From NCBI RefSeq assembly GCF_013816785.1, contig NZ_JACDDV010000002.1, positions 1 to 64,000 on the forward strand: a stretch of 64,000 nucleotides of DNA, written 5' to 3'. Below the pieces are notes generated by a model. The model was not told the origin of the DNA. It was given only the letters and a program-made list of their open reading frames with translations, and ran no database searches. The position numbers and the translations under genes are program-made. Positions 9,363 to 48,873 of this stretch are shown piece by piece; position 1 is the first letter of the stretch, and every line of letters begins with the position of its first letter. The stretch comes from Sphingomonas sp. (GTDB lineage: Bacteria > Pseudomonadota > Alphaproteobacteria > Sphingomonadales > Sphingomonadaceae).

Positions 9363-11657
9363 TTATGCGGCCCGGCGTTTCCTCTCGCTAGTTAGCCGTC
9401 TGCTTAAATCGCTGAAGCTGGACGGGCGGGCGATGACGAAACCTTGCGCAACTTCACATTTCATTGCGACTAGGAGGTCCAGGGTCTCGCGGTTCTCGAC
9501 TCCTTCGGCGACAACCGTGCGACCGAGGGAGTGGGCGAGTGCGATCGTCGATTGAACCATGACCAGATCGCTGCGGTTGTCGCGCATTGATTTGACGAAG
9601 CTCTGGTCGATCTTGATCTCACTAGCCGGGATTTTCTTGAGATATTCGAGGGTCGAAAGTCCGGTGCCATAATCGTCGATCGAAATTTTGATTCCCAGAT
9701 CGCGCAGGCGTAATAGCGGCTCGATATCGGATCCGTTGGTGGCCAGCGTGGCGGTTTCGGTCAGTTCCAGGGTTAGCCTGGCCGGGTCGAGATGATGCTT
9801 TCGGAGCAGCGCGCTGACGCGTGAGGGAAGAATGGGGTTCGACAACATGCGCGCCGAAAGGTTGACCGCCATATCGAACGGGCGGTGGTCGCGGTTGACC
9901 TTGGCCGCCACCGCAATCGCGCGGTCGAGGACGAAAAAGGTCAGCTTTTCGATGCGGTCATTCTGCTCGGCCGCCGCAATAAACTCGCTTGGGCTGATCG
10001 GCCCTTTTTCCGGGTGGGTCCAACGCGCAAGCGCTTCCGCGCCCTTGGTGAAACCGGTAGTGAGGTCCATCTGCGGCTGAAAGGCGACCCACACTTGGCC
10101 ATTGTCGATGGCATTGTCGAGCTGGCCGAGCAGCGAAAGCCGCCATTCGGCATCCTTCAGCCGTTCCGGATCATGGTATTTCCAGCGAAGCCCCTCTCTA
10201 TGCGCTTCGTCGGCCGCGACCAGCGCACTGCCAAGACGATTGGAGATAGATCGCCCACTGCCGATTTCGACGCCAAAACTCACCGAAATATCAAATTGTT
10301 TTCCATCGACCTTGGCAGGACTGCGGAACAAAGCATGCAGCGCCTCGACATGATGGCCGATTGCTGTGTCGGGCTGGACGGTCCAGGCGAAGATGCCCTC
10401 GTCTCCTTGATAGACGGTCTCAATTTCCGAGCCCACCTTGAGACGAGCGACGATTTGTTCAATCAGATTTGCCTCCTGCGCGAGCGACATCGTCGAGACG
10501 ATTTGCGGGAAGTTGAGAATTCGCGCGGCGACTAGCGTCCGATTGCGTTCTTGATGGGACCGCCGCAGCGCGTGCATATTCGGCAGGCCGCTGACGGTGT
10601 TGACCAATCCGCGTTTCTTCGCGTGGGCCCACCCAAGCGCTGTACCCACAAAAATCAGCGTGAAGAGCGCTGGAGTGATGTCAATGAAGATTAGGTTTGC
10701 TTCCAAGGCCACCGGTACGGCCAAAAGTCCGATACCCACGGCAACGAGGACTAGAGGGCGCTTCGGTCCGCTCATTCGCAAGCACAAAAGAATCGCGCCT
10801 AAGGTAATCACAAGTACAAGTAGCCACCCCATGTCAACTGGATCGCCCGCCTTCAGGGTTTCTGCCGCAATTATATGGACGTACACGCCGCCGTATTTTC
10901 CCTGACCGGGTATCATATATTGGTCATATTGTCGCCAAGCGTCCGGGCCAACGATAACGACTTTACCGCGCAAAGCAGAAGCGGGCACTCGGCCCGCGAG
11001 TAAATCAATTGCGCTGATTTTTGGGATGGATTTTACGTCGAAGGCGTAATCGATCCGAAATGACGGTCGGTCGCTAACCTTCCTCTCCGTCATGATTGTC
11101 GCAAAAGTTGGAAACTTTCTACCTCCAATCGGGACCCAATAGTTCAAGTTCCAAATTTCGTTTGCATAATTATAATGAGCAGAAATCGAACCAATTTGCG
11201 CATTTCGATAAAAACGCGGAAGTGAACGCACACTAACGCCCGGTTCGTTGTCAATCCCTACCCGATCAAGAATAGCTAGCACGACGTTCGTGTTCGAAGA
11301 GATGGCGCGTTCCAAGGCGGCGTCTTCGACGGGCGTCGTCCGATCAGGGAAAATGAAGTCATGCACCTGCATTTTGGGATGCGAGGCGCCAATCTTGCTG
11401 ATCAGTTCGGCATAGCGCGACCGAGGCCACGGCCAGCGGCCGACCTTCTGCACCGATTTTTCGTCAATCGCGACCAGCACGATATCGCCGCTGACCGGCC
11501 GTTCATGAAAATAGTTGCGCACGACACGTAAGCGGTCCTCAGGATATTCGCCTGCGCCAATCAGCCCGAACAGTAGGCCAAGCAACACCGCCCAGATGAC
11601 CGTCCGATACGGGCCTCGGGTTGCGGACTTGCTACCGGTTCGGCGCAACAGGGGCAT
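9363..11657 (-). CDS. CHASE2 sensor, degenerate GGDEF, EAL phosphodiesterase
   Basis: 764 residues, inner membrane. The order is an N-terminal membrane helix (about 18-36), an extracytoplasmic CHASE2 sensor (about 45-290; IVLVAIDEKS, GRWPWPR, GKVVIVGP), then three closely spaced membrane helices (about 293-355). A GGDEF-like domain follows (SGLPNMHAL start) whose active-site loop reads YQGDEGIF rather than GGDEF, so no cyclase activity is expected. The C-terminal EAL domain is intact: EALARW, NLSARML, ELTETA, IDDYGTGLSTLEYL, KIDQSFV and VAEGVEN keep the usual metal and catalytic residues. Predicted c-di-GMP phosphodiesterase. The CHASE2-coding half is visibly more AT-rich than neighbouring genes. 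The gene lies between pntAA and pntAB on the opposite strand. Confidence 0.92.
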   Translation of the reverse strand: MPLLRRTGSKSATRGPYRTVIWAVLLGLLFGLIGAGEYPEDRLRVVRNYFHERPVSGDIVLVAIDEKSVQKVGRWPWPRSRYAELISKIGASHPKMQVHDFIFPDRTTPVEDAALERAISSNTNVVLAILDRVGIDNEPGVSVRSLPRFYRNAQIGSISAHYNYANEIWNLNYWVPIGGRKFPTFATIMTERKVSDRPSFRIDYAFDVKSIPKISAIDLLAGRVPASALRGKVVIVGPDAWRQYDQYMIPGQGKYGGVYVHIIAAETLKAGDPVDMGWLLVLVITLGAILLCLRMSGPKRPLVLVAVGIGLLAVPVALEANLIFIDITPALFTLIFVGTALGWAHAKKRGLVNTVSGLPNMHALRRSHQERNRTLVAARILNFPQIVSTMSLAQEANLIEQIVARLKVGSEIETVYQGDEGIFAWTVQPDTAIGHHVEALHALFRSPAKVDGKQFDISVSFGVEIGSGRSISNRLGSALVAADEAHREGLRWKYHDPERLKDAEWRLSLLGQLDNAIDNGQVWVAFQPQMDLTTGFTKGAEALARWTHPEKGPISPSEFIAAAEQNDRIEKLTFFVLDRAIAVAAKVNRDHRPFDMAVNLSARMLSNPILPSRVSALLRKHHLDPARLTLELTETATLATNGSDIEPLLRLRDLGIKISIDDYGTGLSTLEYLKKIPASEIKIDQSFVKSMRDNRSDLVMVQSTIALAHSLGRTVVAEGVENRETLDLLVAMKCEVAQGFVIARPSSFSDLSRRLTSERKRRAA

Positions 11658-24018: not shown

Positions 24019-25206
24019 GTGATCCGGCTAGTCGCGATCGGCCTGCTGTCATTGCTTGCGATCGTCCAGATTGCCCGCCAGGCCGTGGTGTCGGCCTTTG
24101 CAAAGACCCACCCGGCCTATGCTCGCGCAACGTGGGGCGCTCATCCCGACGTCGCGTTCAAGTTCGGCCTGGAGGCTATCGCCGCGGCCGCCGCCGAACA
24201 TCGTTCGGCGCCGCGCGCCCGCATCCAGGATATGTTGGCCAGGGCCCGATGGTCGCCCCTTTCGCCCGAACCCTTCCTCGTCCGAGGCGTCGATTTGCGC
24301 CTATCCGCCAATGAGGGCGGGGCCGGTCGGGCCTTTGCCGCAGCCCTGCGTCGCGACCCTAGGTCGATCGCCGCGCGCTATTTCCTCGCCGACCATTATT
24401 TGCGCAGTGGGCAAGGCGACAAAGGCCTGACCGAACTGGCAATGCTGACGCGGCTTGTGCCCAACTCGATCTCCGGTGTGGCGCCATATTATGCCGCCTT
24501 CGCCAGCCGCCCCGGGGGCGCAGCGCGGATCAAGGCGATGTTGGACGACCATCCCGAGTTCGAGCCGGTGGTCCTGGCGGCGCTGGCAGACGACGCCCGC
24601 AACGCCGATCTCATCCTCTTTTTATCGTCGGGCCGGAAGAATTTCGACGAAGCGCCCCCGGGTTGGCAAGGTCGCCTGGTTCAGGCCCTGGTCGCAGCAG
24701 GGCAATATGAGAAAGCGCGCACGGTCTGGTCGCGAATTGCTGGCACCTCAGCGGCCACCGCATCCGGCGCACTATTGTTCGACCCGGAGTTTTCGCATGG
24801 GTCGGCGCCGCCGCCATTCGGCTGGACGCTGGTCTCGAACGGCTCGGCAGTAGCCGAAGCGCAAGCAGGCGGACGGCTCCACCTGATTTATTTCGGGCGC
24901 GACAACATCGTCCTGGCGAGCCAGTTGCTGTTGCTGAAGCCGGGCCGATACCGACTGACGGCCGATGTCGACCGAAGCATCGACGCGACATCGATTGCCT
25001 GGCGCCTGACGTGCCGCCCGACGGACAAGCCGATCCTGTCGCTGCGTCTGGGCAAACGGGGAGAGGGGAATTCGCTTACCGGGGCGTTCGCCGTCGCCGG
25101 CGACTGCCCAGCCCAATTGCTCGAGCTTGCCGGTACCTCGCCCGAATTCCCGGAGACGGTCGATCTCACCCTTGCCAACCTTCGGCTGACAAGAGTGGCT
25201 TCATGA
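24019..25206 (+). CDS. EPS-locus membrane-anchored TPR-like protein
   Basis: About 395 residues. An N-terminal membrane anchor (IRLVAIGLLSLLAIVQIA) is followed by helical repeats resembling TPRs (AFAAALRRDPRSIAARYFLADHYLRSGQGDKGLTELA). A C-terminal beta-rich segment follows (DPEFSHGSAPPPFGWTL, KPGRYRLTADVD) with a carbohydrate-binding-module look. The GAGGGGAG ribosome site abuts the ATG at 24013, so the GTG at 24019, about 6 nt away, is the better-spaced start. It overlaps the ligase gene as ATGA. Function unknown; the location suggests an assembly or scaffold role in polysaccharide polymerisation or export. Confidence 0.72.
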   Translation: MIRLVAIGLLSLLAIVQIARQAVVSAFAKTHPAYARATWGAHPDVAFKFGLEAIAAAAAEHRSAPRARIQDMLARARWSPLSPEPFLVRGVDLRLSANEGGAGRAFAAALRRDPRSIAARYFLADHYLRSGQGDKGLTELAMLTRLVPNSISGVAPYYAAFASRPGGAARIKAMLDDHPEFEPVVLAALADDARNADLILFLSSGRKNFDEAPPGWQGRLVQALVAAGQYEKARTVWSRIAGTSAATASGALLFDPEFSHGSAPPPFGWTLVSNGSAVAEAQAGGRLHLIYFGRDNIVLASQLLLLKPGRYRLTADVDRSIDATSIAWRLTCRPTDKPILSLRLGKRGEGNSLTGAFAVAGDCPAQLLELAGTSPEFPETVDLTLANLRLTRVAS

Positions 25207-25250
25207 CCCGTGAAAAGCTGCGAGCCATGACCCGGGAAAAGCTGCGCGCC
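25203..25250 (+). repeat. 24-bp tandem duplication at the start of the ligase/polymerase gene
   Basis: ATGACCCGTGAAAAGCTGCG... at 25203-25226 is followed directly by ATGACCCGGGAAAAGCTGCG... at 25227-25250, with two mismatches. Both copies encode MTREKLRA, so the gene has two in-frame start codons with the same coding context. Confidence 0.85.
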
Positions 25251-26588
25251 GCCCTGGGCCCGACCTATCTCTTCTTCTGCCTGGTTCTGGGCGGCAGCGT
25301 CCAGGGCGTGTGGGGCGCGACCTCGTTGCAGCTGTTGGCGGTGTTGATCATCGCCTGGTCGTTCGCCGAACCCGGGCAAACCAACTTGCAACGCCCCATG
25401 CGGCAGTTGGGCTGGTTGGTCGTGGCCGCGGTGACGCTGTTCGCCGTGCATCTGCTCCCCCTTCCGCCGGCAATCATAATGGCGATGCCCGGGCGTGAAA
25501 TCGTCGCCGAAGGCCGGGTGATCCTCGGTCTCCGGGCGGGCTGGAGCAGCCTGTCGCTATCGCCTTACGATACGGCGGCAGCGATATTGCCGCTTTTGCC
25601 GCCGGTCGCCATGCTCTGCGCCATTGTGCGCCTGAGGGCCTATTCGCCGCACGGGCTGGCGGTGGCGGTGCTAACGGCAACCGTTGCGGCGGTCGCGCTC
25701 GGCGCGCTCCAAACCGGATCGCCCGATCCGCCCACCTCCCCCTGGTACCTTTACAAGATCAGCAATTTCGGGGTCGCGACCGGCTTCTTTGCCAACAGCA
25801 ATCATATGGCCTCGATGCTGCTGGTCTCGATCCCGTTCATGGTCGCCCTGGCGGCCCATTCGAGCCGCGCGGCCAAGGAAGCGCGCAAACGCTTCACCTT
25901 GCTCGTCGTTGGCGCTGCCGGGCTGGGCCTGATCATGGTCGGCCTGGCGCTCAACGGATCGCTGTCCGGCTACGGCCTGGTCATCCCGGTGACGATCGCT
26001 AGCCTGCTGATCGCAATTCCGCTTGGCCTGACGGCACGCAGGGCCGCGCTCGGACTGTGCGCCGCCGGTATGCTGGCCTTCTTCCTTTTGCTGTTCAGTC
26101 CGCTCAGCAATCATATGCCGGGTGCCGCGACCTCGATCGATAGCCGCCAGGAGATGCTAGCCGGAGGCACCGCCGCCTTTACCCAGTTCGCGCCGGTCGG
26201 ATCAGGTTTCGGCACCTTTACCAGAGTGTATCCCCTGTTCGAGCGACCCGGCGAGGTAGATGCGACCTTCGTCAACCACGCCCATAACGATTATCTCGAG
26301 CTGGCGGTCGAGACCGGGCTGCCCGGGATTGCTTTGATGCTGCTTTTCCTCCTGTGGTGGGCCGCGGCGGTGCGGCGGATGCTGGCGTCGCCCGCCGCGG
26401 ACGGGTTCGCCATGGCAGGCGCGATTGGATCGGCCGCGGTCCTGGTGCACAGCGCGGTCGATTACCCGCTGCGGACGGCAGCGGTGGCGGCGCTATTCGC
26501 CACCTGTATCGCGTTGATCCTGGTGTCGCGGCGAACCGCGAGCGCCAAGACCGATATCCGGCCCACCCGCCACCTCGTCATCGGCTGA
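25203..26588 (+). CDS. O-antigen ligase/Wzy-family membrane protein
   Basis: 461 residues with about ten to twelve hydrophobic helices. A large periplasmic loop has the Wzy_C/WaaL pattern GSGFGTFTRVYP and NHAHNDYLELAVETGLPG. It polymerises repeat units or ligates polysaccharide at the periplasmic face. The start ATG at 25203 overlaps the previous stop (ATGA). The first 24 nt are tandemly repeated so that a second ATG lies 8 codons in. The last 96 bp overlap the convergent membrane-protein gene. An EpsG-type protein later in the locus is a second polymerase candidate. Confidence 0.88.
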   Translation: MTREKLRAMTREKLRAALGPTYLFFCLVLGGSVQGVWGATSLQLLAVLIIAWSFAEPGQTNLQRPMRQLGWLVVAAVTLFAVHLLPLPPAIIMAMPGREIVAEGRVILGLRAGWSSLSLSPYDTAAAILPLLPPVAMLCAIVRLRAYSPHGLAVAVLTATVAAVALGALQTGSPDPPTSPWYLYKISNFGVATGFFANSNHMASMLLVSIPFMVALAAHSSRAAKEARKRFTLLVVGAAGLGLIMVGLALNGSLSGYGLVIPVTIASLLIAIPLGLTARRAALGLCAAGMLAFFLLLFSPLSNHMPGAATSIDSRQEMLAGGTAAFTQFAPVGSGFGTFTRVYPLFERPGEVDATFVNHAHNDYLELAVETGLPGIALMLLFLLWWAAAVRRMLASPAADGFAMAGAIGSAAVLVHSAVDYPLRTAAVAALFATCIALILVSRRTASAKTDIRPTRHLVIG

Positions 26589-26903
26589 GCGCCGCACAAA
26601 CAAGCCCGGGCGGGCGCGAGCCAGCAGCACCAGCAGCGTCGGCAAGAACATCGTCGACGCGATGTCCTTCAAGCTTTCACCATATTGCGCGGCGGGGTCG
26701 GGCCATACTTCGACCCACAGATCGTTGGCTTCGTTGGCTAGTTCGAGCGCCAGCACGACAAGCCATGGACGCCAGTTGGCGACGCTCGTTCGCAGTCCGA
26801 CCGCAATGAGGATCGACAGGAGCGTCCCCGCGACGATATGCAGGGCGTCCATGCTGAGCGAGGTCGCATGCGCGGCGAGCAGCTTTACCTGATACCAGAT
26901 CAT
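26493..26903 (-). CDS. small integral membrane protein, VanZ-like topology
   Basis: 136 residues. Three hydrophobic helices (LHIVAGTLLSILIAVGL, WRPWLVVLALELANEAND, KDIASTMFLPTLLVLLARA) follow an amphipathic N-terminus, and a polar Gly/Arg-rich tail ends the protein. The acidic motif LANEANDLW lies in or near helix 2. The tail overlaps the convergent polymerase gene by 96 bp. That overlap explains its unusual composition and raises the chance that the true end or reading is constrained by the other strand. No confident family; similar small proteins occur near sphingomonad envelope loci. The nucleotidyltransferase gene ends 7 bp upstream on the same strand. Confidence 0.6.
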   Translation of the reverse strand: MIWYQVKLLAAHATSLSMDALHIVAGTLLSILIAVGLRTSVANWRPWLVVLALELANEANDLWVEVWPDPAAQYGESLKDIASTMFLPTLLVLLARARPGLFVRRSADDEVAGGPDIGLGARGSPRHQDQRDTGGE

Positions 26904-26909
26904 CGCGCG

Positions 26910-27962
26910 CTATGCGCCGCGCCGGACGATCGACGCAAGCTGACGCGTAGCTTCGGACATTTTGAAGCGCCAACCGGGCAGCAGAACGAGTTGCGACGCC
27001 CTGATGGGAAGGGTACCGAGCATCGTCTCGGTCGGCTCGCGGCGCGACCAGACACCGTCCAGATAGATCATGGCCGATGCGACCAGCCAGCGATTCGCCG
27101 GGTCGGACAACAGGCGATTGCGCAAGCCGCCCAGGGGGATGGCATAAAGCCGTTCCGCCAACAGCAACGCCTGCCCCGCGCTACGGCCGGCCCCGGCATC
27201 GATGGCGAACCGATAAAACCGTTCAAACTCTGCCGGGTCACGGCCATGGAGAAAGGCGGCGAGGTCGGTAATCCATTTGAGCCGAAACCAGGCACTGGAT
27301 GCGCCGTGAATGCACAAATAAGCGAACAGAGGGTCGTCGGCGAGGGTCGGAAGCATGAGCTTTGGCGAAATCTCGACGCTCTGCCGCGTCGTGCCGACGT
27401 CGATAGCGGGGATCAAGGCGGGATGGTCGGCGAGCCGGCCGTGCAGTTCGACGAAAATCGATTCCTTGCCCTTGCGCCAGACCGATTCCTTGTTCCGATC
27501 GTGCCACTGGGCAATGCGCCGGGCATCGCCTGGTGCGACCGGCCGATAGCCGAGCTCGACCAGTCGGTTGGCGGCATCGCCGATCCGCGACGGTGCGACA
27601 AGCAAGTCGATGTCCCACCCCATTTTCACGAATGGGTCGCCATAGGCGATGACGCCCAGCGTCAGCCCTTTGAGGAACAGCAGCGGAATCCCGGCCCGAT
27701 CGAACGAGGCGAGGAGGCGGGCGCTCTCGGCGGCGTTCAGCATGCCGGCTTGGGCGATCGACGTCGCCGCGGCTGTAAGGCGATCGGCTGTGGGTCCATC
27801 GACGGGCAGGTCCAAGTCGTTGATCGCCCGCCAGACGAGCCCTTCGACGCGATTTCGCCGGGCCAGCGCCAACAGAGCATCCCCATCCACAGCCTTTGCC
27901 ATCGCACATAGTTCCGTCCGGTCCGGCGCGGGCGCGAACGCCTGCCGGCACAAGGCCAGCAA
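26910..27962 (-). CDS. nucleotidyltransferase-family protein of the lasso-like RiPP cluster
   Basis: 350 residues from the TTG at 27962. Nucleotidyltransferase fold of the NTP_transf_5 type: PLLFLKGLTLGVIAYGDP, then the metal-binding KMGWDIDLLV (Asp117, Asp119), then ELHGRLADHP and a helical C-terminal half (YLCIHGASSAWFRLKWITDLA). Members occur in paeninodin-type lasso clusters with a tailoring kinase and may modify the peptide. The N-terminus is odd: ATG at 28011 encodes MDKPDP then hits TAG. The next frame reads PSRRLSPAFRYLLALC straight into this gene, as if one C had been inserted. Divergent from the B2 gene. Confidence 0.8.
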   Translation of the reverse strand: MLALCRQAFAPAPDRTELCAMAKAVDGDALLALARRNRVEGLVWRAINDLDLPVDGPTADRLTAAATSIAQAGMLNAAESARLLASFDRAGIPLLFLKGLTLGVIAYGDPFVKMGWDIDLLVAPSRIGDAANRLVELGYRPVAPGDARRIAQWHDRNKESVWRKGKESIFVELHGRLADHPALIPAIDVGTTRQSVEISPKLMLPTLADDPLFAYLCIHGASSAWFRLKWITDLAAFLHGRDPAEFERFYRFAIDAGAGRSAGQALLLAERLYAIPLGGLRNRLLSDPANRWLVASAMIYLDGVWSRREPTETMLGTLPIRASQLVLLPGWRFKMSEATRQLASIVRRGA

Positions 27963-28087
27963 ATATCGAAAGGCGGGGGAGAGGCGGCGGCTAGGGATCG
28001 GGTTTATCCATCTTCGGTCTACTACCTTCTAACTGCTGATTGCTGTGCGTATAGCAAACCGCCAACCATCCGGGATTATGTATCAGC

Positions 28088-28558
28088 GTGCCCGCTTCGC
28101 GTTTCACCTCAATGCTCGCCAAGGCCCGCCAACTGGGCTGGAGCGACCGTTTGGTCCTTCTGGATGCCTTGGCTTCGCTTGCATTAGCGTCTGCGCTGAT
28201 CCGCCTCGCGCCGTTCGAGCGCGCCGTCCGTTCGGCCTCTCGCCGCCGGCCGGGAACGCCGCGCGCTTCCGATGCGACCGTTCGACGAGTCGTGTGGAGC
28301 GTCGACGCGGCCGCGGCGCGAGTGCCATGGAAGGCTATGTGTTTTCAACGGGGACTGGCCGTCCAGCGGATGCTGCGTCGTAGAGGCCTTGACGCGTTCC
28401 TCCATTACGGCCTGGGCCATGGCGGGGCGCGCGACCTAGAGGCCCATGTCTGGGTTACGGTGGGCGGCGTGGTAGTGATCGGCGGAGAAGAAGCGCGTCG
28501 ATTCCATCAAGTCGCCGTCTTTCCCGATTGGGGGCCGACCGTTGCGCGAAGCAAATGA
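28088..28558 (+). CDS. lasso-peptide biosynthesis B2-type (transglutaminase-like) protease
   Basis: 156 residues. The C-terminal half has the B2 leader-peptidase pattern: PWKAMCFQRGLAVQRMLRRRG with nucleophile Cys85, and DLEAHVWVTVGG with His120. The third catalytic residue is not obvious. The N-terminal half is helical and hydrophobic. In lasso pathways this protein, guided by the PqqD-like B1, removes the leader before macrolactam closure. The start is GTG at 28088; an ATG at 28112 is possible. It overlaps the kinase gene by 17 bp. Confidence 0.88.
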   Translation: MPASRFTSMLAKARQLGWSDRLVLLDALASLALASALIRLAPFERAVRSASRRRPGTPRASDATVRRVVWSVDAAAARVPWKAMCFQRGLAVQRMLRRRGLDAFLHYGLGHGGARDLEAHVWVTVGGVVVIGGEEARRFHQVAVFPDWGPTVARSK

Positions 28559-29444
28559 TTATCGCCTGTTCGGGCTGACGCTGCGCAGCGACTTGCCGTT
28601 GCCCGAGTTGGTCCGGGTGGACGGAGTCGTGGATCCAGATGTTCGAGTGGTGCTTGCCGATTCCTCCATGCCCCAATCAGGGCGGGGCTTAGGCTTCGCG
28701 GTCGAGGGGGTAGCGCGGTTCGAGGTGATTGGCGGTTCGACTATCATCGTCGCCGTCGACCCGGATTCGGCTCCGCGCAACGTAAGGCTCTATTTGCTAG
28801 GTTCGGCGATGGGCATGCTGCTTCACCAGCGGCAGCTTCTACCTCTCCACGCCAACGCGATCGAAATCGACGGGAAAGCTTATGCTTTTCTCGGTGCCTC
28901 GGGCGCGGGTAAGTCGACCCTGGCCGCGGCGTTTCAGGATCGCGGATATCGGGTGCTCGCCGACGATGTCTGCGTGATTCGTTTTGAGGATAACGGGCGT
29001 GCCATGGTTGCTCCCGGCATGCCGCGCCTCCGCCTCTGGCGCGATTCGCTCGAAGCGAGCGGCCGGGACGCCTCCGCTTATCCGCGTTCCTATGCGGGTG
29101 ACGAGACCTGGGACAAATATGACGTCGGGCTGCCGCCGTCGGCGACCCTTGCCGACTCTGTCTCGCTGGCGTCAATTTTCGAGCTTCGCGCTGCTGACCG
29201 GTTTTGCGTGACGGGCCTTGGCGGGATGGATGCGGTATCGGCCCTGATGGCGAATACCTATCGAGGATACTTCGTCGCCGAGGCCGATGGTGCCAGGAAT
29301 CATTGGCAGGACTGTATCAGGCTGGCAAAGTCGGTGCCCGTCATGACGTTCGCGCGGCCACTCGATTTTACCCAGCTCGATGCCTGTGTCTCCTATCTCC
29401 TTTCGGCCATCAAGGCGGCGGCATCCGGGCACGCGACGGGCTGA
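28542..29444 (+). CDS. HPr-kinase-like RiPP tailoring kinase
   Basis: 300 residues. The P-loop GASGAGKST is at 118-126, preceded by LLPLHANAIEIDG, and followed by YRVLADDVCVI with the acidic pair at 141-142, all as in HPr kinase/phosphorylase C-terminal domains. The N-terminal HPrK regulatory domain is replaced by a beta-rich segment. No PTS genes are nearby. In paeninodin-type lasso clusters this kinase class phosphorylates the C-terminal Ser of the precursor, and the precursor here ends in Ser. The start is TTG at 28542 behind a GGGGG, overlapping the B2 gene. Confidence 0.87.
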   Translation: MREANDYRLFGLTLRSDLPLPELVRVDGVVDPDVRVVLADSSMPQSGRGLGFAVEGVARFEVIGGSTIIVAVDPDSAPRNVRLYLLGSAMGMLLHQRQLLPLHANAIEIDGKAYAFLGASGAGKSTLAAAFQDRGYRVLADDVCVIRFEDNGRAMVAPGMPRLRLWRDSLEASGRDASAYPRSYAGDETWDKYDVGLPPSATLADSVSLASIFELRAADRFCVTGLGGMDAVSALMANTYRGYFVAEADGARNHWQDCIRLAKSVPVMTFARPLDFTQLDACVSYLLSAIKAAASGHATG

Positions 29445-29487
29445 ATGGCCGAGGCCGGCGGTGTCCGCGGGCCGGACGAACAAACGA

Positions 29488-29516
29488 TTGAACCCAGAGC
29501 ATGCTGTTGCTAAGCA
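29488..29516 (+). promoter_or_regulatory. possible promoter for the precursor gene
   Basis: TTGAAC (29488-29493) and TAAGCA (29511-29516) are separated by 17 bp within the 128-bp gap between the kinase and precursor genes. The -35 match is fair and the -10 match is poor. A separate promoter for the abundant precursor is typical in such clusters, but this assignment is weak. Confidence 0.25.
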
Positions 29517-29572
29517 AAAGTTCGCAGTTTCATGGACTTCGGCGTTCACGACTCGCGTAATGGAGGCAATGT

Positions 29573-29710
29573 ATGACGAATATTTCTGACAATTCGGGCC
29601 GCAAGCCCTGGTCCACGCCGCGTCTCAAGTCGATCAAAGCGGGTTCTGCCGAGTCCAAAAAGGGCAGTGGCATTGCTGATGGCGGGGCGGGCGGCAACAA
29701 CAAGTCGTAA
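29573..29710 (+). CDS. candidate RiPP precursor peptide (lasso-like cluster)
   Basis: A 45-residue ORF missing from the ORF track. GGAGG at 29562-29566 lies 6 nt before the ATG, the best ribosome site in the cluster. The leader half carries GRKPWSTPRLKSI, matching the aromatic-xx-P-x-L pattern recognised by PqqD-like B1 proteins in lasso systems (Trp in place of Tyr). AGSAES follows, then a Gly/Asn-rich C-terminus KKGSGIADGGAGGNNKS ending in Ser. It contains no Cys, and no Thr at the -2 position of any plausible Gly1/Asp7-9 core. The only acidic residues after the leader motif are Glu27 and Asp36. It sits 26 bp before the cyclase-like gene. Precursor role is strongly implied by context; the mature product is unknown. 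Confidence 0.8.
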   Translation: MTNISDNSGRKPWSTPRLKSIKAGSAESKKGSGIADGGAGGNNKS

Positions 29711-29736
29711 CCTGTTCGGGACTTTCCCGCTAAGTC

Positions 29737-31644
29737 GTGTCAGCGATCGCTGGATTTGTCCGTCGGAAGACCGATACCAATCCCGAATTGGCATGTCGTG
29801 ACATGCTCGCGGCGTTGTCCGCGTTCGGTTCGGACGGTCGCGTCATTGCCCACGCCGATCGTGCTGCGTTTGGCCGCAATCTTTTCAAAACACTTCCTGA
29901 AGACGATTTCGACGCACAGCCGACGCTTTGGCCACAGGGCCGTCTGTTTGTAGCCGATGCCCGAATTGACAACCGAGCGGATGTCGCACGATCGCTCCGG
30001 ATCGCCGCGGCCGATGCAGCCATTCTATCCGATGGAGCATTGCTGGCAGCGTCTTGGCGCCGATGGAAATTTGACGCGGTCGAGCGGGTTTTGGGCGACT
30101 ATGCGTTTGCAACTTGGGACGGCGAGCGCGAGTGCCTTACGCTGGTTCGCAGTCCATTTTCGCTGAAGCCCTTATTCTTCTGCTCGGAGCCACGATTTGC
30201 GGCATTCGCCTCGATGCCCGCCGGGCTTTTTGCGCTCCGGGAATTTTCGAAGAAAATTAACATCCATTATGCGGCCGGAGTTGCCGCGCTTTATTCATAT
30301 CTCGGCTCCGCCACCATCTTCGAGGGGGTCGAAATGGTGCGGCATGGTCATGCCGTGGAATTGGCCCGAGATGCGACGCGAAGCTTTCCAATCTGGACTC
30401 TAGAGCGGAAGATGTCGCCGATCCGGCGCGCTGAAGAAGCCGGTGAAGCGCTGCGTGCCGAGTTTGATCGGGCAACGCGGTGCAGCCTTCGTCGTCACAA
30501 GGGGTCGGTTGCATCGCAGTTGAGTTCAGGGCGCGACAGCAGCGCCGTTACCGCGAGCGCGGCCATCGCGATGAAAGACGGTCGGGAGCTTCTGACCGCG
30601 CTAACCGGCGCACCGCGCGAGGGCTTTTCGGCCGCCGATCCGCCCGAAATGTTGTCCGACGAAAGCGGCATGGCTTCGAAGATGGCTGCAATCCACCCCA
30701 ATTTGCGCCACGTCATCTGCCGGCCTTCTTCCGGCTCGATAATTCCGACGATGGAGGCGATCAATGCGGTCCATCACGGCCCCCTTCTCAATCCCTCCAA
30801 CCTGCCATGGTGGGCCGCGATTAACGATGCGGCATCGACCCAGGGCAATTCGGTTCTCCTGCATGGGACGACCGGTAATTTTACGATCAGCGCTGGGGGA
30901 CCCGATCATATAGGTGACTTCCTGCACGAGGAGGGGCCGCTGGCGTGGGCGCAAGTCCTCACCACGATCGGCGGCGGGCCGCCTTCCCGCTGGATCGGTG
31001 CATTGAGCCAAATCGTCGGGCCCTTCCTGTCGCGCTCGGCGTACGACCTCATTCTCAAAGCCAGCGGCCGCTCGTCGGACGATGTCTGCCGCGTCCTTGT
31101 CCTGCGAGAGCCCTACCGCACCCGGGCCGAGGCGCTCCTTCGAGAAAAATTCGGTGATGCGCGTCCTCCGCTAAGCGCCTTTGAGTATCGCCGTGACATG
31201 CTGATGTTGCGCGACAATCCGGAAAAGATGTCGCTGGGCAAGTGGGGTCTCGACCCGCGCGATCCGACGTCGGATCGAGCGGTGGTGGAGCTCTGCTTTT
31301 CATTTCGTGCGAGGCATCTGTTTTCGTCCGGCGCCGGGCGCCCGGCGTTCGACGCGGCATTCGGCAACCGTATCCCGCGTGAGAGCCTTTGCTCCACCAG
31401 GCGTGGGTATCAAGGTGCCGACTGGTTCGAGCATTTTCCACTGCGGCAAGTCGCAGCTGCATTTATGACCTATGGGAAGAACGAGTTAGTTCGCGAGCTG
31501 TTGGACTATCGGTATATCGAAGCGCTGCTCGATGCCTGGCCGGCCGACGGCTGGGATCGCCGCGAGCGCTTGCTGACTTATCGGAACAGCCTGATCGGCG
31601 CGCTCGCGCTGGCCAGTTTCATAGATTTTCATTTTCCCGATTAG
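29737..31644 (+). CDS. asparagine-synthetase-like macrolactam synthetase (lasso cyclase-like)
   Basis: 635 residues. The N-terminal class II glutaminase-like domain starts SAIAGFV, so the catalytic Cys2 of AsnB is missing and glutamine hydrolysis is not expected. The synthetase domain keeps an ATP-pyrophosphatase loop as SSGRDSSAV (about 265-273; SGGxDSS in AsnB). Lasso cyclases of the McjC/LarC type adenylate an Asp/Glu side chain and close an isopeptide bond with this architecture. The start is GTG at 29737, 26 bp after the precursor. The stop shares TTAG with the convergent pqqD-like gene. The product could equally be another side-chain amide. Confidence 0.88.
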   Translation: MSAIAGFVRRKTDTNPELACRDMLAALSAFGSDGRVIAHADRAAFGRNLFKTLPEDDFDAQPTLWPQGRLFVADARIDNRADVARSLRIAAADAAILSDGALLAASWRRWKFDAVERVLGDYAFATWDGERECLTLVRSPFSLKPLFFCSEPRFAAFASMPAGLFALREFSKKINIHYAAGVAALYSYLGSATIFEGVEMVRHGHAVELARDATRSFPIWTLERKMSPIRRAEEAGEALRAEFDRATRCSLRRHKGSVASQLSSGRDSSAVTASAAIAMKDGRELLTALTGAPREGFSAADPPEMLSDESGMASKMAAIHPNLRHVICRPSSGSIIPTMEAINAVHHGPLLNPSNLPWWAAINDAASTQGNSVLLHGTTGNFTISAGGPDHIGDFLHEEGPLAWAQVLTTIGGGPPSRWIGALSQIVGPFLSRSAYDLILKASGRSSDDVCRVLVLREPYRTRAEALLREKFGDARPPLSAFEYRRDMLMLRDNPEKMSLGKWGLDPRDPTSDRAVVELCFSFRARHLFSSGAGRPAFDAAFGNRIPRESLCSTRRGYQGADWFEHFPLRQVAAAFMTYGKNELVRELLDYRYIEALLDAWPADGWDRRERLLTYRNSLIGALALASFIDFHFPD

Positions 31645-31916
31645 GAACTCACTGAATCGACGAGCCCCTCGTCGACCAACTGCGCGAGAAGTTTTTCGAC
31701 CTCAGTCCGGCAAGCCGCGGGCTCTACGTCATAAATTTCGGTCAAACGATCGCATATTCTCTCAAGGTCGGTCGGCTCGCTCAGCAAATCCCATACGTCG
31801 CGCGTGACATTTTCCATTCCAAAGCACTGACCGCGCTTTAGGTGGAGCGCGACGATATCATCGCCGACCCGAGTGAAGAGAGCGTCGCTCGATCGACTGA
31901 AGGTAAATTTTGTCAT
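31641..31916 (-). CDS. PqqD-family RiPP recognition protein (B1-like)
   Basis: 91 residues, a winged-helix RiPP recognition element: FTRVGDDIVALHLKRGQCFGMENVTRDVWDLL, then DLERICDRLTEIYDVEP and a C-terminal helix (VEKLLAQLVDEGLV). In lasso systems this protein binds the leader peptide and delivers the precursor to the B2 protease and cyclase. I take the ATG at 31916, preceded by GGAGA; the 241-residue track ORF reads back through the YkgJ gene in another frame. It overlaps that gene by 4 bp (ATGA-type coupling) and the cyclase by 4 bp. Confidence 0.88.
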   Translation of the reverse strand: MTKFTFSRSSDALFTRVGDDIVALHLKRGQCFGMENVTRDVWDLLSEPTDLERICDRLTEIYDVEPAACRTEVEKLLAQLVDEGLVDSVSS

Positions 31917-32422
31917 GGTGTCTCCGCACTGGCGCCTTGGTCGTGAGAGGGGTGGGCAGGCTTTCGGAAAAACTTGTCGAAATAATGCCTCACGGCAGCC
32001 CATTGCAATTTTCGATTCATTAGAGCCAGATCGCGCTCGGACTGCTCGCTCTCGCCGGGGGCGTCTGCCCGTGCCCGCGCGACAAGTTGCTTCGCGACGG
32101 CAACGTGGTGGAGCGCGCCCTCGAGCGCAATATTGCCGGCTTCTAGATTCTGCAGCAAAACGCATTTGTAACGGGAGCATACGCGTGGCCGGTCGGGATA
32201 GACGGTGCATTGGCTGCCCGAAAGGCGAGGGCAGGGCAGCTCGAACCTGAGTTCGCCGTCGGATCGGACCGTCAAACCCAGCCTTTCGGCGACTGGCACT
32301 TCGTCGGAATCGAGCACGGCGGCACCGTGAAGGTCGCCGGCGCAACAAATGCCGCAGCTCGTGCACAGAAGGGTGGCGTCCCTCTGGTTTGGCGCAGGGT
32401 CGAGCGAAGGTAACGTTTCCAT
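31913..32422 (-). CDS. YkgJ-family Cys-cluster protein
   Basis: 169 residues. The N-terminal Cys array LCTSCGICC, then PCPRLSGSQCTVYPDRPRVCSRYKC, matches the zinc/iron-chelating YkgJ (CxxCxxCC) family. The helical C-terminal part is unassigned. It is translationally coupled to the pqqD-like gene, placing it in the RiPP cluster. Cys-cluster proteins of this kind occur beside PqqD-like genes, but no reaction can be assigned. It could be a metal-dependent modifying enzyme or an accessory protein. Confidence 0.78.
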   Translation of the reverse strand: METLPSLDPAPNQRDATLLCTSCGICCAGDLHGAAVLDSDEVPVAERLGLTVRSDGELRFELPCPRLSGSQCTVYPDRPRVCSRYKCVLLQNLEAGNIALEGALHHVAVAKQLVARARADAPGESEQSERDLALMNRKLQWAAVRHYFDKFFRKPAHPSHDQGASAETP

Positions 32423-32543
32423 CGTTCGCGAACTAGCGCGTGAAATGCGAAAGCCAAAGTATCAACCGAATGCTGGACGCTGTTCATCTCAACACCTAGG
32501 ACCGCACGGTGCCGGCTCGGGCACGCTGCCTCGGGGAAGCGTC

Positions 32544-33590
32544 TTGGTCGTTTACTGGTTGCTTTTCGCCTATTTTGCCCTGGGTGCGGTGCTCACGACC
32601 AACCGTGAGCGCGATCAAGACCAGACGCCGCTTTTTTTCTTTTTCGGCATGCTGTTGATCTTGCTGGCAATCGGACTGCGCTACGAGGTCGGCGCGGATT
32701 GGCAAACATACGAGTTCCTGTTTTCCTTCGCTCGTTACGCCAGCCTAGGCGAGATGATGGAGTTCGGCGATCCCGGCTATCAGTTCGTCAACTGGCTGGT
32801 GAGGCAGATTGGGCTCGAGGTTTGGCTGGTCAATCTGATTTGTGCCGGCTTTTTCACTTGGGGGTTGACCCGCCTCGCGCGTGCACAGGCCAACCCATGG
32901 CTCGCGGTGCTGGTCGCCATTCCCTATTTGGTCGTGGTGGTTGCGATGGGCTATTCGCGCCAGGCTGCGGCGATCGGGGTGTTGATGGCCGGACTTGCCG
33001 CGGTGCAGCAGGGGGCGTCGACGCTTCGCTTTCTCGCCTATGTTGCTGTGGCCACGCTGTTTCACCGCACAGCCCTGGTCACGATTCCGCTGGTGATCTT
33101 TGCCGGCAATCGCACTGGATTTCTTAACCTGGTCGCCGGAGTTGCGGGTTCGTTTGTCCTTTACGACCTGTTTCTGTCCGATTCAGTAGACGTCTACGTC
33201 AGAAACTATGTGGAAGCGGAATATACCTCCCAGGGCGCGGCTGTCCGAGTTGCAATGAGCGTCATTCCCGCCTTCTTGTTCTTCACGCTGCGGCGGGCAT
33301 TCGATTTCAACCTGCACGCGGACCGCTTGTGGCGCAATTTCAGCCTTGCCGCGTTTGGTATACTGATCCTGCTGTTCACCTTGGCCTCCTCGACCGCTGT
33401 CGACCGTCTCGCTTTGTACCTCATTCCGCTTCAGGTCGCCGTTCTGCCGCGAACGGTTCGCCTTTTTCGCGGGCAGGAAATCGGCACTTTCCTGGTTCTC
33501 GCTTATTCCTTCGCGGTGCTTTTCGTCTGGCTGAACTTCGCCGACCACTCAAAATATTGGCTGCCCTACCGAATTTATCCGATATTCTGA
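32544..33590 (+). CDS. EpsG-family polysaccharide polymerase-like membrane protein
   Basis: 348 residues, about ten membrane helices. Family landmarks are [17 protein letters not shown] near the first loop, [25 protein letters not shown] and [11 protein letters not shown]. EpsG-type proteins are Wzy-like polymerases of capsule and exopolysaccharide repeat units. The track ORF from 32349 runs antisense over the YkgJ gene and lacks homologous-looking sequence there. GGGGAAG at 32533-32539 precedes the TTG at 32544, which starts directly at the first membrane helix, so I use that TTG. Confidence 0.82.
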
Positions 33591-45106: not shown

Positions 45107-47095
45107 ATGTGCGGAATAGCGGGTTTGCTAGGGCCCGACGCGGCCAAGCCGGACGTAGTGCGGCGGATGACCGCGGTCATCGCGCATCGCGGCCCCGACG
45201 ATCATGATGTCTGGACCGATCCGGAGGCCGGCATTGCGCTCGGCCATCGCCGCCTAGCGATCCTCGACCTTTCGCCACACGGACATCAGCCGATGCACTC
45301 CGCCGATGGCCGCTTCGTCGTCAGCTACAATGGCGAACTCTACAACCACACCGACATTCGCCATGAGCTTGAGCAATGCGGCAAGACGCCCGAGGGCGGC
45401 TGGCGCGGCCATTCGGACACCGAGACGCTGGTCGAGGCGATCGCCGCCTGGGGCCTGGAACGGGCGATCGACAAGGCGGTCGGGATGTTCGCCTTCGCGC
45501 TGTGGGACCGCAAGGATCGGATGCTTCGCCTGGTGCGCGACCGGTTTGGCGAAAAGCCGCTTTACTACGGGCAAATCGGCAAGGACCTGGCGTTCGCGTC
45601 CGAGCTGAAATCGCTGCGTGAGCATCCCCGATTCAACGCCGAGATCGATCGCGACGCGCTAAAGCTCTACGCCGCGCGGACTTATGTTCCCGCGCCTTAT
45701 TCCATCTATCGCGGCATCTACAAGCTGCAGCCGGGCTGCATCCTGTCCATCCCCGCGGGCGAGCCGTTGGGGATGCTCAATGCGCCGCCCGAGGAGGGCG
45801 CCGCCGGCCCGATACGCCTGACACGTTACTGGTCCTATCGGGGCGTCATGGCTGCCGGCCTTACCGATCCGATCCACTCGGAGCGGGGTGCGCTCGAGGC
45901 GCTGGATAAGGTGCTCGGTACGGCGATCCGGAGGCAGGCGATTGCCGATGTGCCGGTCGGCGCCTTCCTGTCGGGCGGGATCGACAGCTCGACCATCGTC
46001 GCCCTCTACCAGAAATATTCGTCGACACCGGTGCGGACCTATTCGATCGGCTTCACCGAAGCCGGTTTCGACGAAGCGCAGCACGCCAAGGCGGTGGCGG
46101 CTCACTTGGGCACCGTCCATCACGAACATTATGTGTCGGTCGCCGAAGCCCGCGACGTCATCCCGCTGCTCCCCGCTATCTATGACGAACCGTTCGCGGA
46201 CTCGTCGCAAATTCCGACATTCCTGGTCAGCAAGTTCGCGCGGTGCGAAGTGACGGTCGCGCTGACCGGCGACGGCGGGGACGAATTGTTCGCCGGCTAC
46301 AACCGCCACATCATGGCGCCGCGATTGTGGCAGCGGTTGCAGAAGATGCCACGGGCGGCACGGGCTTTGGCTGCGGGTCCGCTGGGACTGGTGCCGCCGG
46401 CAGTGTGGGGCCGGCTCGCGTCAATGGTGGGCGGTGGTGGCAGCCCGTTCTTAGGCGGCAAAATCCAGAAAGGGATCAGGGTCGCCGGCGGTGCCAGGCG
46501 TTTTGACGATGTCTATCTGAGCTTCCTCGACGAATGGAGCCAGGAGCGCTCGCCGGTGCTCGGCGCGGGCCCGGGAAGCGCGGGCTTCGACCTCGACCCT
46601 CCGCGCGAAGCCGACGACACGCATCGCATGATGTATGGCGACGCGGTCAGCTATTTGCCCGATGACATTTTGTGCAAGGTCGACCGCGCGTCGATGGCGG
46701 TCAGCCTGGAAACTCGCGTGCCGTTTCTCGATCATCGCGTCGCCGCGCTGGCGGCGCGGATCCCACTCAACCTCAAGGTGCGAAACGGTACAGGCAAGCA
46801 TATACTTCGTGAACTGCTGTTCCGTGAGGCTCCTCGGGCCCTGTTCGACCGGCCCAAGGCCGGCTTTGCGGTGCCTGTCGGCGAATGGATCAAGGGACCG
46901 CTCCGAAGTTGGGCCGAGGACCTGCTCGATTCTCGACGGATGACGGCGGAAGGGTGGTTCGATGCCTCGATCGTCCAGAGGCGATGGCGCGACCACCTCG
47001 CCGGGCGGCGTGATTCGACACCCGCGCTATGGGCAGTTTTGATGTTCCAGGCTTGGCTCCGCGAGCAAAAGGAGATGCGCGCGCTCGCCGCCTAA
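45107..47095 (+). CDS. asnB: asparagine synthase (glutamine-hydrolysing), AsnB/WbpS-like
   Basis: 662 residues. Intact N-terminal glutaminase: MCGIAGLL with Cys2, AHRGPDD, RLAILDLSPHGHQPM and YNGELYNHTDIR. Synthetase domain with the pyrophosphate loop GAFLSGGIDSSTI and GDGGDELFAGYNRH. Unlike the cyclase-like gene at 29.7 kb, all catalytic elements are present. Inside polysaccharide loci such enzymes often amidate a uronic acid; free asparagine synthesis is the alternative. A divergent 119-bp gap separates it from wzx. The stop shares CTAA with the convergent ABC transporter gene. Confidence 0.92.
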   Translation: MCGIAGLLGPDAAKPDVVRRMTAVIAHRGPDDHDVWTDPEAGIALGHRRLAILDLSPHGHQPMHSADGRFVVSYNGELYNHTDIRHELEQCGKTPEGGWRGHSDTETLVEAIAAWGLERAIDKAVGMFAFALWDRKDRMLRLVRDRFGEKPLYYGQIGKDLAFASELKSLREHPRFNAEIDRDALKLYAARTYVPAPYSIYRGIYKLQPGCILSIPAGEPLGMLNAPPEEGAAGPIRLTRYWSYRGVMAAGLTDPIHSERGALEALDKVLGTAIRRQAIADVPVGAFLSGGIDSSTIVALYQKYSSTPVRTYSIGFTEAGFDEAQHAKAVAAHLGTVHHEHYVSVAEARDVIPLLPAIYDEPFADSSQIPTFLVSKFARCEVTVALTGDGGDELFAGYNRHIMAPRLWQRLQKMPRAARALAAGPLGLVPPAVWGRLASMVGGGGSPFLGGKIQKGIRVAGGARRFDDVYLSFLDEWSQERSPVLGAGPGSAGFDLDPPREADDTHRMMYGDAVSYLPDDILCKVDRASMAVSLETRVPFLDHRVAALAARIPLNLKVRNGTGKHILRELLFREAPRALFDRPKAGFAVPVGEWIKGPLRSWAEDLLDSRRMTAEGWFDASIVQRRWRDHLAGRRDSTPALWAVLMFQAWLREQKEMRALAA

Positions 47096-48873
47096 GTCGA
47101 TTCGCCCGGCCTGGGCTCGCGTGGCCCGAACAATTGTTCATAAGATCCTGTTTCGACGATCCGTCCGTGATCGAGCCGAACGATCCGGTCGCAGGATCTG
47201 ATGGTGGTCTTGCGGTGGGCGACAATGAGGATCGTGCGGCCTTCCGCGCCGAGCCGGTCGAGCGCGCCCATCAAAGCTTCCTCAGTTTCCTCGTCGAGCG
47301 CGCTGGTCGCTTCGTCGAGTATCAGCACCGATGCGCCCTTGTAGACTGCCCGCGCTACGCCAAGGCGTTGCCGCTGGCCGCCCGAAAGGCGCACCCCGCG
47401 CTCGCCGACCATTGTCTCGTATCCCTCGGGTAGCGTGGCGATGAAGTCGACGAGTTGAGCGACGGAAGCCGCATGGTCGACCCGCGCGAGGTCGATAGCC
47501 TGCGCGGGCTCGCCGAACGCGATGTTGCGCGCAATGCTGCCGTCAGCGAGGAAAATCGCTTGAGGGACGTGCGCGACATTCTTTTGCCAGGCCCGGACGC
47601 TGGCATGGTTGAGCACGACCCCATCAATCGTGATATGACCCGTGCCCGGCTCAAGCAGGCCCATCAGCAGATCGGCAAGCGTGCTTTTGCCCGCGCCCGT
47701 GCGCCCGATGAGGGCAATGCGCTCCCCCCGGGGAATCACCAAGTCAATGCCGCCGACTGCCGCCGCCGCCCGGCCTGGGTAATGGAAGCCAACCTGGTCG
47801 AACCGGATTTCGCGGGCGAAAGCGATCGGCGGCCCCGGCGGACTCTCTTTGGCTACGGCGACCGGGAGGGTGAGCAATTCAACGACGTCGGCGACAATCG
47901 CCTGCTCGGCAGCGAGCGTCGTCCATCCGTTGTAGAGTGTTTGGGTCAGTGGCAGTAGCCGCTGCGCCGCCAGCGCCAGCGCGCCGAGCACGGGCAGGGC
48001 ATTCGCCAGGCCGCCGGTCCGTTCCGAAAGGACGATCGCCACGCCGACCAGCAGCAACAAGCCGAGCGCTTCGATCACGAACCGCGGGGCTGAGGAAATG
48101 AACGCGGAGCTGGCCGCCGCGCGCATGAAGCGCTCATCGATCGACCGAAATGCCTCGACGTAGGGAGCTTGCGAGTGGTCGAGGATGATATCGCGAATCC
48201 CGCCCAGGCTTTCCTGGACCGTCTGAATGCGTCGTTCGTACGATTCGCCGATCACGTTCGAATTACCGGCCAGGCGGCCGCGGATGGCGAGCAACCCGGC
48301 GGCATACACGCTCGCCACGAACAGGGCCGCAATGGCCGCGCTTGTTGCATCGATCATCAGCAGGGCCGCGACGATGAAGAGCGACATTATCAACGCAGAG
48401 GCGGTCTGGAGCAGTTGGAGAACCACGCTGAATACCAGCCGTTCCACCTTCGCTAGGGCGGCGACGATCTGGCTGCTGTTGCGCTGAAGGTGGAAAGCAT
48501 AGGGCTGGAGCAGGATACGCCGCTGAATCTCGACCATCCAGTCGTGGCCCAGGCCGTAGGCGAAACGCTGCGTGGCCCAGGACAGGATCAGGCGAAGCAC
48601 CGCGGCGAGGATCGCAGCCAGCGCAAACAGGCCAGCAGCGGTGACCATAGGCTCGGTGCCGGTTCGCATGCCAATTTGGGCGACTAGCCGGGCCATCCAG
48701 CTTGCCCCTTTCCCGATCGAGGCGTTGGTAAGCAGCGCGAGGAGCGGGATCAAGGCGCTGATTGTTACCAACTCGGCGAGCGCCGCCAGCGGCATCAATC
48801 CGCCGATCAGGACCAACTGACCGCGCCGTCGCCGCGGTATCATGCGCAACAGCTGGCGGACCGGCGCGGCCAA
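47092..48873 (-). CDS. ABC exporter, fused permease and ATPase
   Basis: 593 residues. Six membrane helices in the N-terminal ~310 residues (QLVLIGGLMPLAALAELVTISALIPLLALL is helix 1). The ATPase domain has Walker A IGRTGAGKSTLADLL, Q-loop AHVPQAIFLADGSI, signature LSGGQRQRLGVARAVY, Walker B VLILDEATSALDEE and the switch His in VAHRKTTI. It is similar in layout to PglK/MsbA-type lipid-linked glycan or peptide exporters. It may export a lipid-linked sugar for the locus or the RiPP product 15 kb away; neither is shown. The start is TTG at 48873; an ATG at 48843 is possible. surE lies 6 bp upstream. Confidence 0.88.
   Translation of the reverse strand: MAAPVRQLLRMIPRRRRGQLVLIGGLMPLAALAELVTISALIPLLALLTNASIGKGASWMARLVAQIGMRTGTEPMVTAAGLFALAAILAAVLRLILSWATQRFAYGLGHDWMVEIQRRILLQPYAFHLQRNSSQIVAALAKVERLVFSVVLQLLQTASALIMSLFIVAALLMIDATSAAIAALFVASVYAAGLLAIRGRLAGNSNVIGESYERRIQTVQESLGGIRDIILDHSQAPYVEAFRSIDERFMRAAASSAFISSAPRFVIEALGLLLLVGVAIVLSERTGGLANALPVLGALALAAQRLLPLTQTLYNGWTTLAAEQAIVADVVELLTLPVAVAKESPPGPPIAFAREIRFDQVGFHYPGRAAAAVGGIDLVIPRGERIALIGRTGAGKSTLADLLMGLLEPGTGHITIDGVVLNHASVRAWQKNVAHVPQAIFLADGSIARNIAFGEPAQAIDLARVDHAASVAQLVDFIATLPEGYETMVGERGVRLSGGQRQRLGVARAVYKGASVLILDEATSALDEETEEALMGALDRLGAEGRTILIVAHRKTTIRSCDRIVRLDHGRIVETGSYEQLFGPREPRPGEST

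Follow-up and report, generated by a model that had tools for sequence, protein, structure and literature searches.

A kinase-tailored lasso-type peptide gene cluster within an exopolysaccharide locus of Sphingomonas

Several described systems resemble the locus presented here. The paeninodin-type kinase systems (PMC9266682) combine split B1 and B2 proteins and a cyclase (C) with an HprK-like kinase (K) carrying a His-Lys-Asp-Asp motif, and their precursors have a conserved C-terminal Ser; the motif was tested by mutation in a kinase of this type, and SyanK, the kinase of this comparison, comes from a sphingomonad. In pseudomycoidin (psm cluster, Zyubko et al. 2019, reviewed in PMC9266682), whose host is a Bacillus, the kinase is accompanied by a nucleotidyltransferase (NT)-family gene, and hexosylation of the phospho-Ser depends on the NT homologue. 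The Bsf cluster of Bradymonas sediminis (PMC10368454) encodes B1, B2, C, a kinase and an NT, and its leader lacks Thr at position -2; its lasso kinase, BsfK, phosphorylates Ser3 of the core, and BsfA ends in Asp. Thr(-2) is indeed usual and not obligatory, as Ile at this position has been validated, and leaders with Ile or Val(-2) were already noted in Sphingomonadales (PMC10368454). Furthermore, paeninodin-like clusters of Bacilli have been reported to co-localise with capsule loci, and there, as in the clusters for linear phosphopeptides (LPPs), kinase, NT and RRE-type RiPP genes stand among polysaccharide genes and the leaders carry [Y/W]xxP motifs (PMC13381572). LPPs are made with a signal-peptidase-like enzyme and no cyclase, the paeninodin clade is described as restricted to Bacillota, and the same paper states that the function of lasso peptides tailored by kinases is unknown (PMC13381572).

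The window, a stretch of 64,000 nucleotides from a Sphingomonas sp. (NZ_JACDDV010000002.1), contains at positions 26910-32422 a real and conserved gene cluster of the kinase-tailored lasso type. It shares with the paeninodin-type systems the split B1/B2, a putative cyclase, the kinase motif and the C-terminal Ser of the precursor, with pseudomycoidin the pairing of a kinase and an NT gene, with the Bsf cluster the set of B1, B2, C, K and NT and a leader without Thr(-2), and with the capsule clusters of Bacilli the setting among polysaccharide genes and the leader motif. Conversely, it differs from the paeninodin-type systems in a leader ending in Ala-Glu rather than carrying Thr(-2), in a short Gly/Asn-rich tail, in its position within an exopolysaccharide (EPS) locus and in the dispersal of the genes in some relatives. 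The NT product is only predicted here, the host is not a Bacillus, the precursor ends in Ser and not in Asp as BsfA does, and the capsule clusters belong to a different phylum, Bacillota. With regard to LPPs, B2 and C are present, and no SpI-like peptidase was found among the genes of 26910-32422. Because the strict paeninodin clade is restricted to Bacillota (PMC13381572), we call the window paeninodin-like only.

An initial annotation, made from the sequence alone, had proposed seven genes in this region, and the ORF check found all of them, including the 45-aa precursor; the family assignments of NT, B2, B1 and YkgJ also held. The NT gene (26910-27962, minus strand) encodes an NTP_transf_5 nucleotidyltransferase (PF14907, E 1.5e-40), probably a tailoring enzyme acting on phospho-Ser, in which the DxD motif (D117, D119) and K98-G99 are invariant across relatives. 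The B2 leader peptidase (28112-28558, plus strand, from an ATG; it may instead start from a GTG at 28088) scores 75.6 bits against NF033537 (cut-off 33) and also matches PF13471. Its Cys85 and His120 (numbered from 28088) are invariant; in the alignment of relatives the third residue of the catalytic triad was not evidently conserved, and the structure comparison matched no solved structure. The B1 gene (31641-31916, minus strand) encodes a PqqD-like RRE protein that exceeds the cut-off of PF05402 (56.6 bits, cut-off 23.4) and reaches 53 bits against NF033536, under its cut-off of 80.

The cyclase gene (29737-31644, plus strand) encodes an asparagine-synthetase-like protein whose nearest model is the lasso cyclase NF033535. 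As the initial annotation had read it, the N-terminus, MSAIAG, is without Cys2, whereas another synthetase of the window (45107-47095) begins with MCGIAG and has Cys2 present; the synthetase motif S263-G265-D267-S268 is invariant. Family scores are also weak for the kinase (28542-29444, plus strand), and both C (165 bits, cut-off 525) and K (best NCBIfam match TIGR04352, 43 bits, cut-off 200) fall below curated cut-offs, which, together with the unclear third residue of the B2 triad and the absence of Thr(-2), weighs against the lasso reading. The AlphaFold2 model of K (pLDDT 91.5) has PEPCK as its structural matches. This fold is common to HPr kinase. Furthermore, His103, Lys124, Asp141 and Asp142 are unchanged among relatives and fit the mutation-tested His-Lys-Asp-Asp motif (PMC9266682); we annotate K as an HprK-like kinase. 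The best match of K, together with a weak TIGR04353 match of B1 and the EPS setting, could point to a system of HprK-related kinase A and PqqD_rel_X instead of lasso biosynthesis. We rejected this identity as highly improbable: K reaches 43 of the 200 bits required and B1 21 of 35, and the locus also has B2, a ring-type precursor and a Cys-less cyclase. Most genes of the cluster resemble the flanks in GC content, but it is lower in B1 (0.54) and in the precursor gene (0.57).

The seventh gene (31913-32422, minus strand) encodes a YkgJ-like CxxCxxCC protein (PF03692, 29.9 bits, cut-off 23). Its stop overlaps the B1 start by four bases, so the two genes are probably co-expressed. Relatives mostly have one to three PF03692 proteins. 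The copy in the window differs from the two others of its genome but is related (36-38%) to proteins encoded next to lasso genes in S. parva (L081) and in another genome (G207, L039); for most remaining members of the subfamily, the flanks covered contain no lasso gene. A role as core component was rejected, since the protein is absent from nearly all relatives, and we keep it as an optional partner. In one genome of the same genus (G199, L247) a YkgJ of this subfamily precedes NTP_transf_5 and Asn-synthetase-like genes, possibly another RiPP-like set.

The precursor gene (29573-29710, plus strand) lies between K and C. Homologous precursors sit by homologous cyclases in dozens of genomes, thus it is not a chance ORF. 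The initial annotation had staked its reading beforehand on a conserved precursor in syntenic genomes, and this was found: the precursor adjoins the cyclase or the kinase in four genomes of the genus (G408, G420, G434, G422), and in S. cremea (G240) it (L075) is displaced by about 15 kb, none being found beside the cyclase. A family search with the 45-aa precursor alone, taken up to E 10, was dominated by noise, yet led to L075 and to a second precursor type, L073. We then collected short reading frames whose leader is of the W/Y..P.[LV] type around approximately 100 related cyclases, leaving the last residue free. Of these precursors, 58/65 end in Ser, the residue that kinases of the paeninodin type phosphorylate, against a background of 10% of all short ORFs, and several of the remaining 7/65 look spurious; in later precursor searches the C-terminal Ser was one of two alternative criteria, and in another a scoring term. 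Many precursors share the leader W..P.[LV]...AG.AE, followed by a hypervariable core, and have D/E 8 or 9 residues after AE, a position partly built into the search pattern.

In the window, the leader (codons 1-27, 29573-29653) carries the RRE-binding motif W13xxP16 and ends AG-S-AE. Alignment shows Ala(-2) and Glu(-1) and no Thr at -2; since the canonical Thr(-2) of a Pseudomonas PDM16 precursor (L101) aligns at the Ala of AE, we place the cut after AE. The predicted core is thus SKKGSGIAD-GGAGGNNKS (residues 28-45, 29654-29707), with a ring from Ser28 to Asp36 and Ser45 as the predicted phosphorylation site; residues 24-45, first proposed as the core, started four residues too early. The Asp is at core position 9 from this cut, and at 8 or 7 if the cut is later; S28 was preferred as the more probable start over K29 or K30, which would give rings of 8 or 7 residues, as the T(-2)-x of L101 and L104 aligns with A-E.

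We consider it likely that the cluster makes a kinase- and NT-modified, cysteine-free lasso-type peptide, and that this peptide acts in an EPS-coupled pathway. In such a scheme, B1 would bind the WxxP leader, K would place a phosphate on Ser45, the last residue of the precursor, and to this phosphate NT would add a further group, a hexose in the one homologue studied. B2 would then cleave after Ala26-Glu27, and C would join the new N-terminus, Ser28, to Asp36 in a nine-residue ring, giving a product with a short Gly/Asn-rich tail and a modified terminal Ser. We infer the order of reactions, the phosphorylation and the hexosylation by analogy with the studied systems; from the role of the pseudomycoidin NT (PMC9266682), a phosphohexosyl C-terminus would be the likeliest product. 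The calculated monoisotopic masses are 1585.78 Da for the cyclised core, 1665.75 Da with HPO3 and 1827.80 Da with HPO3 and hexose, or 1498.75, 1578.72 and 1740.77 Da for a cut one residue later. The core in the window has Ser at positions 1, 5 and at its end, and the near-universal C-terminal Ser favours phosphorylation at the end over an internal site of the BsfK kind.

The tail GGAGGNNKS contains no bulky residue able to lock a threaded knot, and several other precursors of the genus are also devoid of bulky plug residues. It is therefore conceivable, if rather unlikely, that the product is a phosphorylated branched-cyclic peptide (an unthreaded lariat) or a linear one, for which the LPPs of Bacilli are analogues (PMC13381572). 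Two points argue against this: a cyclase gene is found in 24/24 genomes with linked Wzy and NT genes, and the precursors have D/E at position 8 or 9 of the ring, which the search pattern partly presupposed.

The initial annotation had placed the set between a Wzy-type and an EpsG-type polymerase gene, and the flanks are genuine EPS genes (PF04932, PF14897, Wza, Wzc). On the left are Wza, Wzc, a TPR protein, the Wzy_C gene (O-antigen ligase/polymerase family, 25011-26588, plus strand, PF04932, 46 bits) and a small membrane protein; on the right, the EpsG-family gene that borders the cluster (32349-33590, plus strand, PF14897, 152.6 bits; the true start is probably further in), dTDP-sugar genes (named from sequence, without family scan), glycosyltransferases and an ABC transporter. 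The surroundings of the cluster are thus an exopolysaccharide locus. The NT and Wzy genes are convergent, therefore they do not form one operon. The small membrane protein between Wzy and the cluster (26493-26903, 136 aa) matches no family over cut-off, and it also adjoins Wzy in genomes with an empty site (L186, L271). The ABC transporter gene (47092-48873), about 15 kb downstream, belongs to a type that some lasso clusters contain; relatives of it lie inside those of L213 and L221, so it could be the missing exporter. The absence of a dedicated receptor holds within the cluster, but a TonB receptor gene is present about 27 kb away (59958-63383).

The EPS linkage is stronger than could be seen from the window. 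In a scan of 61 genomes of the same genus (the named relatives come from GTDB genomes; two locus records, L083 and L110, are apparently the same as G422 and G407 and were counted once), the distance between NT and Wzy is at most 1 kb in 24/27 genomes having both, which are non-independent events, against an expectation under random placement of roughly 0.2% per genome, a null that ignores shared descent. The pair EpsG-Wzy, within 6 kb in only 8/28 genomes, is a better internal comparison than random placement. All 24 genomes also have K and C matches, and K is usually the next gene after NT beside Wzy; among Wzy-positive genomes without NT, a K match was found in only 1/12. In several genomes (G410, G415, G416, G417, G418, G425, G428, G451) NT and K are beside Wzy though the best cyclase match is at least 50 kb away or on another contig. 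The EPS location is thus not an accident of one genome: the position is kept genus-wide for NT and usually for the kinase. Order and orientation of the genes vary from relative to relative, so that the split strands, initially regarded as unusual, are ordinary here. A lone B2 was observed beside EpsG in G407, G441, G442 and G449. Lone B2 genes directly beside EpsG are at L187:3134, L196:3127, L198:3135 and L201:13488, and a lone B1 at L194:13649, with the cyclase and kinase matches elsewhere in these genomes.

In the kinase tree, the Wzy-linked kinases fall in one cluster (23-24 rows, long branches), so that the linkage may have a single origin and have persisted since. Mapping the presence of NT onto the Wzy tree requires seven changes, indicating that the module was repeatedly lost, or gained through recombination, at one site; G276, the nearest kin of S. 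cremea in this tree, shows an empty site with the order EpsG-DUF-Wzy. The NT-Wzy linkage may be due to common descent and to recombination of the EPS locus. Taken further, the peptide could be an ordinary phosphorylated lasso peptide, for example an antimicrobial or a signal, and the EPS locus a recombination hot spot for variable cassettes, with NT-Wzy inherited and not selected. Presence and absence recurring at one site, the hypervariable cores, related clusters of the family lying outside EPS loci and often near an ABC transporter, and the patchy distribution in Bacilli, read as typical of conflict genes (PMC13381572), are coherent with this explanation. We nevertheless regard it as unlikely, because NT, usually with K, persists beside Wzy while the cyclase and precursor are elsewhere, and a similar co-localisation exists in a distant phylum. 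The linkage suggests that peptide and EPS work together, and action of the product in an EPS-coupled pathway would account for NT, usually with K, being kept beside Wzy; such a functional tie is plausible but unproven.

The Wzy_C family includes ligases, and the phosphate-sugar on the C-terminal Ser might even be where peptide and polysaccharide join, with Wzy_C or another enzyme of the locus transferring EPS chains onto the phosphohexosyl lasso peptide, or building them from it. We hold this to be improbable; if true, EPS chains would be capped or anchored by a knotted peptide. In the open-licence papers searched, capsule co-localisation was found only for Bacilli (PMC13381572), and a report elsewhere may exist; as the Bacilli case is known, the novelty is the alphaproteobacterial version. 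With this second, phylogenetically remote case, which has a tailoring gene beside one polysaccharide gene and the ring-forming genes elsewhere, the polysaccharide hypothesis becomes specific and can be tested in relatives, Sphingomonas cremea among them.

With a single-sequence query, C homologues at E<=1e-30 were found in 17/401 genomes of the family; the profile search gave a C-like match in 44/61 and a K-like match in 39/61 same-genus genomes, some of them partial and possibly other synthetases. Outside the genus, most related clusters are not in EPS loci. NT is present in 11/15 EPS-type loci, a class including some extra-genus loci with a single EPS-like match, against 28/87 elsewhere (Fisher p 0.004, with rows sharing descent), and no significant depletion of the ABC transporter was seen among clusters linked to EPS (2/15 vs 32/87, p 0.08).

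Two minor observations concern other genomes of the genus. In G420, the cyclase (L188:4046-5955) consists of two overlapping ORFs, a frameshift or a true split. Moreover, there is a second precursor type, whose leader ends A-x-x-AR and is followed by M.G......EG...GKS; it ends in Ser and sometimes has cysteines. Its members are at L073:10539-10697 and 10826-11029, L222:10114-10275 and 10374-10520, L216:7828-7953, L217:11228-11356 and L223:11163-11291, and in G377 two tandem copies lie near EPS genes.
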